From: a virus
Virus record (IMG/VR): IMGVR_UViG_3300005613_000396
Span: 1 to 24,823 of that record
Direction: 5' to 3' (one strand)
Length of the DNA stretch: 24,823 nucleotides
The notes under the pieces: model-generated
What the model was told of the DNA's origin: nothing
Database searches by the model: none
Seen by the model: the letters and a program-made list of their open reading frames with translations, nothing else
Translations under genes and position numbers: made by a program
Part shown: in pieces, positions 7,840 to 15,884 of the stretch
How the letters are laid out: each line of letters opens with the position of its first letter
How positions within the stretch are numbered: the first letter of the stretch is position 1

Positions 7840-9879
7840 TTAAAGTCCATATTCCATTCTGGCGGCCTTTTGTCTTTGTTTCTTTTGATAAATACTCTTT
7901 TTAAGTCTTGCCTTCTCTTTTGCTGGATCACGCCTCTCAAGAGTGCTCAGGGCGTACCTAGAAGCGTCAAGACAATTATGTACTAAAATCCCGTTAGCAA
8001 AATATTCATGACAGCCGTCAACAGTTAAATCAAAGACTTTCTCTTTCCAACTTCCTTCTACGACGCAGTGCTTTAGCCTTGCAATTTGGATGACAGTATT
8101 TTGATATTCCTGAGTATCTTGTCTTGTATTTTTTTCCACAAACTTCGCAAGTCCTTGTTTTGTACTTCTTGTTCTCCCAAGTCTTTTTTCCATGTTTTTT
8201 ATGCCACTCAATACCTTCTGGTGAACTGTGCCATTTTTTAGCCGCCTCAATTCCTTTCTTATGAAACTCTTCAAACCATTTACGACCTTTTTTCTTAATA
8301 TTTTCTTTGGCATGAAGCGACATGTGAGCATTTTTATCAACCAGCTCGAGATTTTGAATATTATTATTCCAAGGATTGCCATCTTTGTGATGAACATGCT
8401 TGTTTTTAGGAATAGCATCACAAAATTCGCTCCAAACCACTCGATGAAGAAATCTAGTACCCCTGCTAAAATATCTCGCCCCCGGATAAAGATGATATTC
8501 TTTGCCTTTGAATAATTGCACAGGTAAACCCCGTCTCCCGATTGTAATTTTGATATTCGTTTCCATCCTTTTATTGTTTTTATTTTATGATCCGCAGTAC
8601 ATTTAATTATAATTTCTTTAGTATCTAATTGCAACCTGTATTTGTTTACTGGTTTCGTTCCGTTACTCCATCTTTTAACTACTGAATTGTACCCACTACT
8701 TGTCAGAACCAAGTCATCTGGATTAATATCTTTTATTGCCTTAGTCCCACTAGATGTATTGATTAATGTGTCGCCAGTAAAACAATGATTGAAGGCATCC
8801 TCCGGTATGTTGGGCGTAATCGTCTTGCCCAGCCTGTCTGTCGCCCAGGTGTAATTGCGGTACTCTTTTATTAAATTAACACTCCTTTTAGTAACCGAGA
8901 TTGGTATATCCTGAAGAAACTGTATCCCCTGCCTCACCGAGTCCCTGCCTTTTTCCGCCCCCCTAATGTTTACTCCATATCCGTAAATCTCGTCAATGCT
9001 CTTGGGTTCAGCGCTGTCGGCAATCACAAGAGTTTCCGGGTGATTAACAATATCAAGAATGAAATCGGCTATTTTCTTGTTGCTCATCCCCTTCTGATAG
9101 AACTGTTCGTCTAAAACATACCCCCCGTTTAAATAGTAAACATCAACCAGGGCAGAGGGATCTATGGTGTACCCGAAATCCAGCCCCCGGCGCACCAGGC
9201 GTGCCTCGTGAGGTATTTCGTCTATGATCTGCCAACCGCTATAAATCTTTCCTTCAAGCTCTCCAAACTCGCCCCTCCCGTAAACCTTCCAAAAGTTTTT
9301 CCTATCCTTTTTCGACTCAAGGGAGCGGACAATGTTTTCATCAAGCGCCTCATTGTCTTTATAAGTTAAAATGAGATGATCGTAATCATCCCTTTTGGGG
9401 AAAATATCATCGCTTACCCAGAACTCTGTAACCGGGTTGTAGTCTATAAAGACAAACTCGTTGGTTCTAATTTCAAGCTGTTCAAAAGTTTCAAAGGGAA
9501 CATTGTTTGCCTCGTTTATAAACAACCTGTCTCTCCTCGGTCCCCTTACCTTGCCGGGCTGGTCTGCCGAGAAAAACTCAATCTTGCTACCGGTTTCAAA
9601 GGTATAAACATAATCTGTTTTATTCCAACTTTTGGGCTTAAATAAATTGAGACTTCCCATAATTTCAAGAAAGTCTCTTACAGATCCTCTTTTCAAATGC
9701 GGAAAGGTTTCTGAAACAACAGAGGTCAGGGTCGGCTTCTCGTCTCTTTGGGCCAAGTCAATCAGAATAAGTAAAATACTGTAGGTTTTTGAGGCAGAGC
9801 TTCCCCCCTGGACAATACGGAGTCTCTTATCAAGGGCCTTAATCTTTTTTAACCCAGTTGTAATACCGGGACGACTCAT
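7840..9879 (-). CDS. terL: Large terminase subunit with intein
   Basis: 679-aa precursor; splicing gives a 409-aa terminase. This motor ATPase and nuclease packages and cuts phage DNA at the portal. Visible motifs: Walker A GGSSASKT (25-32), Walker B RLFINEA (118-124, catalytic E123), coupling motif FIDYNP (144-149), nuclease Asp residues in LDFGYTIDP (D234) and IADSAEP (D288), and the third nuclease motif NH/CLDASRYAL, split by the intein after His365. The C-extein is 44 residues, starts at Cys636 and ends RMEYGL. The gene overlaps the small terminase gene by 4 nt. The intein runs from Cys366 to Asn635. Within it another gene lies in a different frame (8030-8521), yet the terminase frame has no stop throughout. 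Motif set and order fit Terminase_3-type proteins. Confidence 0.93.
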   Translation of the reverse strand: MSRPGITTGLKKIKALDKRLRIVQGGSSASKTYSILLILIDLAQRDEKPTLTSVVSETFPHLKRGSVRDFLEIMGSLNLFKPKSWNKTDYVYTFETGSKIEFFSADQPGKVRGPRRDRLFINEANNVPFETFEQLEIRTNEFVFIDYNPVTEFWVSDDIFPKRDDYDHLILTYKDNEALDENIVRSLESKKDRKNFWKVYGRGEFGELEGKIYSGWQIIDEIPHEARLVRRGLDFGYTIDPSALVDVYYLNGGYVLDEQFYQKGMSNKKIADFILDIVNHPETLVIADSAEPKSIDEIYGYGVNIRGAEKGRDSVRQGIQFLQDIPISVTKRSVNLIKEYRNYTWATDRLGKTITPNIPEDAFNHCFTGDTLINTSSGTKAIKDINPDDLVLTSSGYNSVVKRWSNGTKPVNKYRLQLDTKEIIIKCTADHKIKTIKGWKRISKLQSGDGVYLCNYSKAKNIIFIRGRDILAGVLDFFIEWFGANFVMLFLKTSMFITKMAILGIIIFKISSWLIKMLTCRFMPKKILRKKVVNGLKSFIRKELRRLKNGTVHQKVLSGIKNMEKRLGRTRSTKQGLAKFVEKNTRQDTQEYQNTVIQIARLKHCVVEGSWKEKVFDLTVDGCHEYFANGILVHNCLDASRYALSTLERRDPAKEKARLKKSIYQKKQRQKAARMEYGL
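7975..8784 (-). other. Intein in terminase (270 aa), with out-of-frame endonuclease
   Basis: It starts at Cys1 (CFTGDTLINT, codon 8784-8782) and ends ...EYFANGILVHN before +1 Cys (codon 7974-7972). Block A, block B (TADH at intein 63-66; GWKRISKLQSGD) and blocks F/G (VFDLTVDGCH, penultimate His, final Asn) are all intact, so splicing should work. It sits in the third nuclease motif, a conserved site where inteins often persist. About 88 residues of N-domain and 35 of C-domain are recognisable. The roughly 150 residues between them match no endonuclease; they are the shifted-frame reading of the HNH gene, with a hydrophobic stretch (FFIEWFGANFVMLFL) and then a Lys/Arg-rich stretch. Confidence 0.88.
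8030..8521 (-). CDS. HNH homing endonuclease nested out of frame in the terL intein
   Basis: About 164 aa, -1 relative to the terminase frame. It has the common phage HNH layout: KGKEYHLYPGARYF, LHRVVWSEFCDAIP, then the HNH core HVHHKDGNPWNNNIQNLEL with a following HMSLHA, then a Lys-rich linker and a CEVCGKKY...YCHPNC zinc motif and a basic tail. It would nick or cut the intein-free terL allele to spread the element. A GTG at 8521 is preferred: it follows the last conserved residue of the intein N-domain, fits where relatives start, and has purine-rich GGGAGACGGGG upstream. The other choice, ATG at 8566, abuts AAAAGG and lies inside conserved intein block B. Its stop lies within VFDLTV of the intein C-domain. 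Fusion by frameshift would need two opposite shifts. Confidence 0.85.
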   Translation of the reverse strand: MQLFKGKEYHLYPGARYFSRGTRFLHRVVWSEFCDAIPKNKHVHHKDGNPWNNNIQNLELVDKNAHMSLHAKENIKKKGRKWFEEFHKKGIEAAKKWHSSPEGIEWHKKHGKKTWENKKYKTRTCEVCGKKYKTRYSGISKYCHPNCKAKALRRRRKLERESL

Positions 9880-14261: not shown

Positions 14262-14705
14262 CTATTTTATATTTAAAATCTTAACCAAGCTATCAAACCT
14301 TTCTTCTATGGGTTTTTTGGCGTCTGCAACAACCTCAACGTGTTCCTTCGTTTCCTCCAATCGTTGCTCTTTGGTTATTTTTGGCTTCTTTTCTTTCTTT
14401 TCTTTTTCTTTTGGTCTAGTAGACTTAACTAACTTTTTATCTTTCCCCACTTTATAATCAAGAATGTTTTTATTTCCATTGTCAATCCCCGCCATTAGTT
14501 CCTTTTGTTCATGATCCGGCTCCCAAATATTTACCTCCTCCCCGGCGACCTTCGCCTTTTCTTTCCCAACCACTTTCCAATTTACCACAATTCTGTCGTT
14601 CTTTTCCCTGTCCCCCATCCACATCCGGAGATGATCCTCAGAATGAATCCTCCCGTCGATCGTTCCAACTATTTTCCCGGTTGCCTTTTCGTAAAAGATA
14701 ATCAT
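14262..14705 (-). CDS. Hypothetical tail-region protein with Lys/Glu-rich C-terminal half, 147 aa
   Basis: The N-terminal part MIIFYEKATGKIVGTIDGRI, HSEDHLRMWMGDREKNDRIV looks like a small beta domain as seen in phage fibre-chaperone or fibre-accessory proteins ('YxKxTGKIvGTIDGR'). The second half is a low-complexity charged helix (STRPKEKEKKEKKPKITKEQ, KPIEERFDSLVKIL). The start overlaps the preceding gene's stop (ATGA). It closes the tail transcription unit. Assembly help for the fibres is a reasonable guess from position but not shown. Confidence 0.5.
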   Translation of the reverse strand: MIIFYEKATGKIVGTIDGRIHSEDHLRMWMGDREKNDRIVVNWKVVGKEKAKVAGEEVNIWEPDHEQKELMAGIDNGNKNILDYKVGKDKKLVKSTRPKEKEKKEKKPKITKEQRLEETKEHVEVVADAKKPIEERFDSLVKILNIK

Positions 14706-15148
14706 ATGTTTAGTTTATTCCTAAAAATCTTGTAAGCAAAGTTAAACGTAACCGTGCCAGAGGTAGCGTCATTTCTCCCCTCAACCACAAGGTATATATT
14801 TGTTGCGTCTGCATAAGCGTAAGCATAATAGTAATACAAAAAATCAACAAAGGTTCCGGGACACATATTGTAATTACTCCCCCCGGCAAACACATCAACG
14901 TAGCTAGTAAAATAAGGAACATACCCCAGTCCGTGTGCGATCGTCTCCTCTTTCCTATGATAATACCAAGTTCCGAACGGAAAAAACACCTCCGAATCAT
15001 AGTAATCAGCACAATCTATTACAACAGCCTGGTCCCCGCTTGCGTGATATTTTAAGGTGTTATAATCCGAGCTAAAAATTAAGTTGTCCGGGTCAGTTTC
15101 GGTTAAAACATTTTTGGTTGCTTTGGAAATAGCAATTTTGTAAGCCAT
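14702..15148 (-). CDS. Fibre-associated protein, paralogue 3 of 3, 148 aa
   Basis: Shares with the next two entries the frame 'K..VSKAxxNVLTxTDPdnxiFsSdyNTxK...' and 'tIaHglGYVPyft'. Here: ISKATKNVLTETDPDNLIFS, IAHGLGYVPYFTSY, ATNIYLVVEGRN, then a strand-rich end FNFAYKIFRNKLN. It has a longer middle than its paralogues and a Tyr/Ala-rich patch (FLYYYYAYAYADA). Overlaps with both neighbours are short. It is probably a beta-sandwich attached to the tail or fibre; no enzymatic motif is visible. Confidence 0.6.
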   Translation of the reverse strand: MAYKIAISKATKNVLTETDPDNLIFSSDYNTLKYHASGDQAVVIDCADYYDSEVFFPFGTWYYHRKEETIAHGLGYVPYFTSYVDVFAGGSNYNMCPGTFVDFLYYYYAYAYADATNIYLVVEGRNDATSGTVTFNFAYKIFRNKLNI

Positions 15149-15528
15149 TATGTCCCTGGTGTTTCAAAAATATAATACTTTATGTCAACATTGTAATTTG
15201 CCCCGCCGTCGTCTTTATAAAAGGTTAACCTAATGTTGGTTGCGTCCACCGATAACAACCACCACTTCCCGGCAAAATTGTAATCAACCTCGTTTGGTAG
15301 AGTGGTTTTACCATCCGGAAACTCAGCAAAAGCATAAACCGCCGGAGTTGACGACCTCCCGTGTGCGATTGTAAAAACCTTTGGATCGGCGTTGACGGTT
15401 TGGGAATAATAATTCCCCTCGGCGATTATCTTGAAAGTGTTTAGCTCACTATTAAAGATAAAATCATTAGGATCAGTCGCCGTCAAAACATTTTCACCAG
15501 CTTTGGTAACTTTCAAAACATAAGTCAT
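15148..15528 (-). CDS. Fibre-associated protein, paralogue 2 of 3, 126 aa
   Basis: Starts MTYVLKVTKAGENVLTATDP, then NDFIFNSELNTFKIIAEGNY, FTIAHGRSSTPAVYAFAEFP, DATNIRLTFYKDDGG and KYYIFETPGT. It aligns by eye with both neighbours over nearly its full length and lies between them with 1-nt stop/start overlaps (TAATG type). Local duplication within the operon is the simplest origin. The role is presumably the same as its paralogues, with different surface residues. Confidence 0.6.
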   Translation of the reverse strand: MTYVLKVTKAGENVLTATDPNDFIFNSELNTFKIIAEGNYYSQTVNADPKVFTIAHGRSSTPAVYAFAEFPDGKTTLPNEVDYNFAGKWWLLSVDATNIRLTFYKDDGGANYNVDIKYYIFETPGT

Positions 15529-15884
15529 TAGGTAATCTCGTCATAAAAAATATAATACCGATAATCCTTGTAGGTTGAGCTGTGTTTATTTGAAATGTAA
15601 AGGTTTGATGTGTTTGCATAAGCCCTCCAGCCCGACCCAAGAGGATCAAAACAGTTTGCGATCCTATACTCGCCGCTAGCAATCTCGCAATAAACCAAGT
15701 AAAAGGGAATGTATCCCAAGTTGTGCGAGATCGTCGCAACGTTGTTTAGGTCAACCGTGCCGCTTCCCCTTGCCTTTTCTTTTATCAAGAACCAGTCTGA
15801 GTCTGCATACAAGGCGTAGTGATCCGGATCGGTATCTGTCAAAGCATTGTATCCAGCCAACGAAACTCTGATTGTGTAGCTCAT
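15528..15884 (-). CDS. Fibre-associated protein, paralogue 1 of 3, 118 aa
   Basis: Starts MSYTIRVSLAGYNALTDTDP, then ATISHNLGYIPFYLVYCEIA, ANTSNLYISNKHSS, YRYYIFYDEIT. The shared elements are the N-terminal 'AG.NaLTdTDPd', the 'iaHnlGyiP' turn and the C-terminal 'YyIF' strand. It overlaps the end of the 378-aa fibre gene by 4 nt. In other phages small proteins of this style follow tail fibre genes. No catalytic site is visible. Confidence 0.6.
   Translation of the reverse strand: MSYTIRVSLAGYNALTDTDPDHYALYADSDWFLIKEKARGSGTVDLNNVATISHNLGYIPFYLVYCEIASGEYRIANCFDPLGSGWRAYANTSNLYISNKHSSTYKDYRYYIFYDEIT

Follow-up and report, generated by a model that had tools for sequence, protein, structure and literature searches.

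The terL locus and its intein

The window, meaning the whole stretch of DNA that was analyzed, is a complete virus record of 24,823 bases. Its minus strand carries an ORF for the large terminase, terL, that contains an intein, and the intein in turn contains an HNH endonuclease gene in a different reading frame. The features of the locus are as follows.

7840..9879, minus strand: terL large terminase ORF; 679-aa precursor, predicted 409 aa once spliced
7975..8784, minus strand: intein; 270 aa, precursor residues 366-635, conserved HN preceding Cys+1
8512..8784, minus strand: N-terminal splicing half of the Hint domain; intein residues 1-91, AlphaFold2 pLDDT 85-95, gp41-1/Mtu RecA-like
8098..8511, minus strand: intein-frame linker overlapping the HNH gene; no stops, predicted disordered, poorly conserved
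7975..8097, minus strand: C-terminal splicing half of the Hint domain; intein residues 230-270, AlphaFold2 pLDDT 83-93, HN invariant
8567..8596, minus strand: A-rich, weakly structured stretch 5' of the HNH start, without a Shine-Dalgarno (SD) motif
8564..8566, minus strand: likely HNH start ATG; its A ends the intein Gly codon GGA and its TG opens the conserved Trp codon TGG
8030..8566, minus strand: I-HmuI-like HNH endonuclease gene; 178 aa, frame -1 relative to the intein
8321..8452, minus strand: HNH_3 catalytic domain, HVHHKDGN ... N; Pfam PF13392, HNH residues 39-82
8081..8149, minus strand: HNH zinc-binding motif, CxxC ... CHPNC; C140, C143, C158 and C162 invariant

The terL ORF (9879..7840) has no internal stop across its 679 aa, and Pfam places Terminase_3, Terminase_3C and Intein_splicing all in its frame. 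The intein is inserted in the terminase nuclease motif at NH/CLDASRY (the slash marks the junction). Motif requirements for an intein (Cys/Ser in block A, TxxH in block B, and a C-terminal HN followed by Cys/Ser/Thr) are met; residues C1, T63, H66, H269 and N270 are invariant across all 14 aligned inteins, and the +1 residue is Cys or Ser. The Hint fold test was likewise met, with Foldseek matches to the Mtu RecA and gp41-1 inteins (prob 1.00), and gp41-1 is also the best sequence match in the PDB. AlphaFold2 models residues 1-91 and 230-270 with a mean pLDDT of 83-95 per ten-residue block, and residues 92-229, which overlap the HNH gene, at only ~28-49. A first-pass annotation of this DNA had placed the splicing motifs and an intact intein in the terminase frame; the intein (8784..7975) and the 409-aa extein were recovered exactly as it had claimed.

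Phage HNH genes often reside in group I introns, and the insert might accordingly be an RNA intron with an HNH gene rather than an intein. This can scarcely be credited, given the full set of splicing motifs and the Hint fold in a terminase frame that is open throughout; the group I intron reading was rejected, as the window has no Rfam intron match.

The HNH ORF (8566..8030) matches HNH_3 (PF13392) with an E-value of 2.8e-13, and the catalytic residues H59, H60, N68 and N72 are invariant in the alignment of relatives, which satisfies the test for an HNH_3 domain with conserved catalytic residues. Its predicted structure has a pLDDT of 88.2 (AlphaFold2), and I-HmuI (PDB 1u3e) is both its only PDB sequence match and its best structural match. 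The earlier identification of an HNH gene in the -1 frame inside the terminase intein is thus borne out.

Three other regions of the window, all on the minus strand, can be recorded here. Positions 1-1749 encode a collagen-like repeat protein (QGDTG repeats) that runs past the contig end. It adjoins a gene for a small protein (1904-2269) that matches PHROGs families phrog_559 (HNH endonuclease) and phrog_3339 (homing endonuclease), possibly a second homing gene. Positions 14702-15884 hold three adjoining look-alike small proteins (148, 126 and 118 aa), apparently tandem paralogues.

Reading frames, selection and the HNH start among relatives

The queries used to gather relatives were the terminase, the HNH, an alignment of HNHs, a second HNH family and an intein alignment. 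The resulting 173 nested records, which include some contigs fetched more than once, fall into 101 clusters at 90% nucleotide identity. Both intein halves were detected in all 101 clusters, and every cluster has its HNH out of frame, with none in frame; the relative frame is -1, as in the window, in 93 clusters and the other frame in 8. Terminase and intein form a single contiguous ORF in 100 of the 101. The intein-seeded scan returned 78 loci with the HNH out of frame, none in frame, and one HNH-less mini-intein. Its query spans the overlap and so favours the nested layout, which the HNH-seeded scans do not, and the out-of-frame layout was found alike from both kinds of seed. Inteins were recognized by a profile made from this group; distant inteins with an in-frame HNH are therefore uncounted. 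Relatives whose HNH is always in frame would have refuted the first-pass annotation, and no such relative occurs among the 101 clusters.

The layout was at first a single-contig observation, which two compensating indels in sequencing or assembly could in principle have produced from an in-frame HNH. Its presence in about 100 distinct phage sequence clusters argues against such an error and leads us to exclude it; the layout also occurs in the GenBank genomes of Tetrasphaera phage TJE1, Acinetobacter phage Highwayman and Rhodobacteraceae phage LS06-2018-MD07 and in a Halobacterium plasmid, and what chance remains for compensating indels is negligible.

Across the HNH gene, the intein frame of the 100 contiguous clusters contains no stops, compared to ~603 expected (450 + 46 + 106) under a null model in which only the HNH protein and codon usage matter. 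The unused third frame contains 2102 stops (1953 + 23 + 126) vs. ~1917 expected (1802 + 19 + 97), which indicates that the null is well calibrated. The test took in contiguous ORFs only; among the nested records, only L062/L063 have their intein halves in different ORFs. For the window alone, with the HNH protein fixed and phage codon usage assumed, the intein frame is open with a probability of ~0.006-0.009. The figure of ~1e-4 first put on this chance was thus too extreme for the window by itself (0.6-0.9% of draws), while the accompanying inference that selection keeps the intein frame open is supported by the stop-free frame in all 100 clusters.

Substitutions between related pairs number 514, 415 and 943 at HNH codon positions 1, 2 and 3, respectively. 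Since position 3 of an HNH codon coincides with position 2 of an intein codon, changes there alter the intein frame. HNH identity also exceeds intein-frame identity in every pair compared. Together with the position-3 bias, this marks the HNH protein as the conserved product, and it settles in favour of the HNH frame the question, raised at first pass, of which frame the substitutions fit. The predicted structures agree with the substitution pattern, with the splicing halves and the HNH modelled well and the overlap linker poorly. The alignments thus show one stretch of DNA holding two overlapping putative coding frames, both of them maintained; within the overlap, they show selection acting on HNH residues, with the intein frame mainly held against stops.

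These data also bear on whether the HNH is a dead, frameshifted remnant of a once in-frame endonuclease, open only by chance. An in-frame endonuclease is the usual intein layout, and one relative (L054, see below) has an in-frame LAGLIDADG in another of its inteins. A remnant would nevertheless be very hard to reconcile with invariant catalytic and zinc residues, with purifying selection on the HNH codons, with an HNH open at full length in ~100 clusters and with the absence of any in-frame relative from the 101 clusters. A decayed in-frame domain is rejected by the substitution pattern.

The ATG at 8566 is the likely start of the HNH gene and is conserved in the family; in the main group, the HNH ATG is built on GGA TGG in this way. 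The HNH starts at this site in 67 clusters, and in 65 of them TGG is preceded by A; the other two have a G, which makes the start GTG. Of the 15 clusters with a start elsewhere, 4 have the A (Fisher p 7e-9, uncorrected for relatedness; since the clusters are related, this value overstates their independence). GTG 8521, the other start proposed at first pass, is absent from most relatives and was rejected. No SD motif precedes the HNH start of the window, SD-like motifs are present at only 2 of 58 HNH starts, and few window genes have an SD. GC content is 25% in the 30 bases before the start and 38% in the terL body further upstream, and 90% of upstream windows have more structure than this site. 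This region fits internal, SD-independent initiation, with translation itself being inferred.

Alternatively, programmed -1 ribosomal frameshifting might fuse the HNH to the N-terminal half of the intein, as -1 is the usual programmed direction and the HNH frame of the main group opens just a few codons 5' of the ATG. We judge this improbable because no slippery heptamer common to the start regions could be seen by eye (no program scan was made) and because the conserved start codon lies at a position that is synonymous for the intein. Other lineages, moreover, have the HNH in the other relative frame with an ATG of its own, and free-standing relatives are ordinary genes. Internal initiation remains our preferred reading.

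Occurrence, insertion sites and evolutionary forms

In the three GenBank phages named above, the annotation across the HNH consists of the terminase only. The HNH profile matched twice in plasmids, once at a site nested within a TerL intein. In the archaeal plasmid pGSL19_54.9 of Halobacterium sp. GSL-19 (L200), the HNH is out of frame inside a terminase intein that is annotated merely as a Hint domain-containing protein. An HNH-profile scan of genome contigs found no relative, and the HNH family is thus essentially viral in these data.

One relative (L039:788-3658) has two inteins in a single terL. The intein in the nuclease motif holds an HNH of the window's family, and the P-loop intein (GGSR/C ... 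HN/SGKT) holds a NUMOD4-HNH ORF that is also out of frame, in the other phase. The NUMOD4-HNH family is unrelated to the window HNH and occupies a second terL intein site; all 10 of its members that were examined share the out-of-frame layout. Besides L039, such an ORF in a P-loop terL intein is recorded for L105-L119. Another relative (L054:183-3647) encodes a 1155-aa terminase with a LAGLIDADG in frame in one intein and an HNH out of frame in another. The HNH tree contains differing insertion phases and two relative frames. Within one TerL motif, intein junctions vary by one to a few codons (NH/C, DHI/CDA, DA/CRY, HDW/C), and these aligned junctions suggest separate insertions, or a sliding of the site, between lineages.

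Free-standing members of the HNH family lie next to or near terL in Shemara, BP10, EauM-23 and Poludnitsa. They are interleaved with nested members in the HNH tree, which forces at least three changes between the two states. Intein-less terL relatives with an uninterrupted NHxxDAxRY exist, which satisfies the test for an intein-less allele, and one relative (L187) has an HNH-less mini-intein at the same insertion site. We found no two near-identical genomes that differ in the presence of the intein, and homing therefore rests on inference from the biology of the family and from a patchy distribution. In L062/L063, Vibrio phage 1.245.O (L201) and Brochothrix phage BL3 (L202), terL is split inside the overlap into an N-intein and a C-intein ORF, with the same HNH family between or overlapping the two. 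The HNH is intact in L062/L063 and Vibrio phage 1.245.O; in BL3 only its zinc end is left.

The location of these genes raises the possibility that the HNH has been domesticated as a packaging factor and is not, or is no longer, a homing enzyme. All family-1 HNHs that can be placed lie in or beside terL, and HNH proteins, which work together with terminases in some phages, are reported as components of packaging machines (Kala et al., 2014, as cited in PMC12613952 and PMC10448857). We regard domestication as unlikely, given that many terL relatives have no intein, that the HNH sits inside the intein and resembles I-HmuI, that the L187 mini-intein lacks it, and that it has decayed in BL3.

The first-pass annotation had suggested that a nested HNH may be an intermediate between a fused and a split intein. 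The split side of this proposal is supported by L062/L063, Vibrio phage 1.245.O and BL3, but a fused ancestor is not, since an in-frame HNH occurs in 0 of 101 clusters. The interleaving of free-standing and nested members makes passage from a free-standing HNH to an out-of-frame nested one the likelier path, and the order free-standing, nested, split is our inference from the tree and the split relatives. The nested state looks long-lived rather than transient. Whether out-of-frame nesting is both the standard HNH layout in phage TerL inteins and the route to split inteins and fractured genes is, in our estimation, an evenly balanced question. Its breadth can be cited for a standard layout: two HNH architectures, two sites, both alternative frames, and both bacterial phages and an archaeal plasmid. 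If the broader proposal holds, the overlapped linker encodes nothing needed, and a stop plus an internal start would therefore split the intein and leave the HNH and the splicing domain untouched.

Proposed mechanism and relation to known systems

We consider it highly probable that the TerL intein of the window is mobile and that its homing endonuclease comes from a gene of its own, which overprints the linker in the -1 frame. Ribosomes would translate the terL precursor, which would splice to an active terminase, and other ribosomes would initiate within the same mRNA, at the SD-less ATG on the Gly-Trp codons, to make free HNH. The HNH would cut intein-less terL alleles of co-infecting phages, and repair would then copy intein and HNH together. 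In such a system the HNH would no longer have to fold within the intein, and the linker may later gain stops, giving a split intein without harm to either function. Precursor splicing, HNH translation, cleavage of intein-less terL and homing are all inferred, as there are no expression, cleavage or splicing data.

The endonuclease would thus be a separate overprinted gene, kept in ~100 sequence clusters and overlooked by annotation. The layout would uncouple endonuclease dose from terminase dose, and conserved intein residues would supply a start codon. It also offers a clean natural case of dual coding, with one frame conserved while the other is for the most part merely held open, and a testable path by which contiguous inteins could become split ones, which find wide use as tools in protein engineering.

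Inteins are the textbook case of endonuclease domains fused in frame. The window does not meet that test for a canonical bifunctional intein, its HNH being in the -1 frame, nor does it meet the split-intein test, as the N and C halves lie in one contiguous ORF; only the relatives L062/L063, L201 and L202 pass that test. I-HmuI is encoded in a group I intron, whereas the HNH of the window overlaps a protein-splicing element. Fractured genes, in which gp41-1-type split inteins are accompanied by a free-standing endonuclease, were reportedly described by Dassa et al. in 2009. The window resembles them in that its endonuclease gene is independent of the intein frame, and it has split relatives in L062, Vibrio phage 1.245.O and BL3; it differs in that its intein is contiguous and shares DNA with an HNH_3/I-HmuI-type endonuclease.

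The large terminases of mycobacteriophages also contain inteins (Kelley et al., 2016; PMC5050341), but those are inserted in the ATPase domain; the inteins of our main group occupy a nuclease-domain motif and have the HNH out of frame. A literature search, which did not cover Gosselin et al. (2025) and Dassa et al. (2009), found no description of an out-of-frame endonuclease within a splicing intein. Going by its title and by the citation of it in PMC11855218, which credits it with frequent overlapping frames, Gosselin et al. (2025; bioRxiv 10.1101/2025.01.02.630785) treat actinobacteriophage inteins of "non-canonical architecture" and may report related layouts; priority with respect to that work is unsettled.

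The closest precedent is ShiLan and similar insertions in phage methylases, which carry an out-of-frame HNH but no splicing domains (PMC11855218; PMC12613952). In both systems the insertion keeps the frame of the host gene open and encodes an HNH in a different frame, the HNH has no SD, and the distribution is patchy. In ShiLan the host frame has no splicing domain and the insert is thought to be retained in the protein, whereas the host frame of the window is a complete intein, so the test for a ShiLan-type insertion is not met. The gene involved here, moreover, is terL, the hosts are diverse, and the HNH starts on conserved intein codons.
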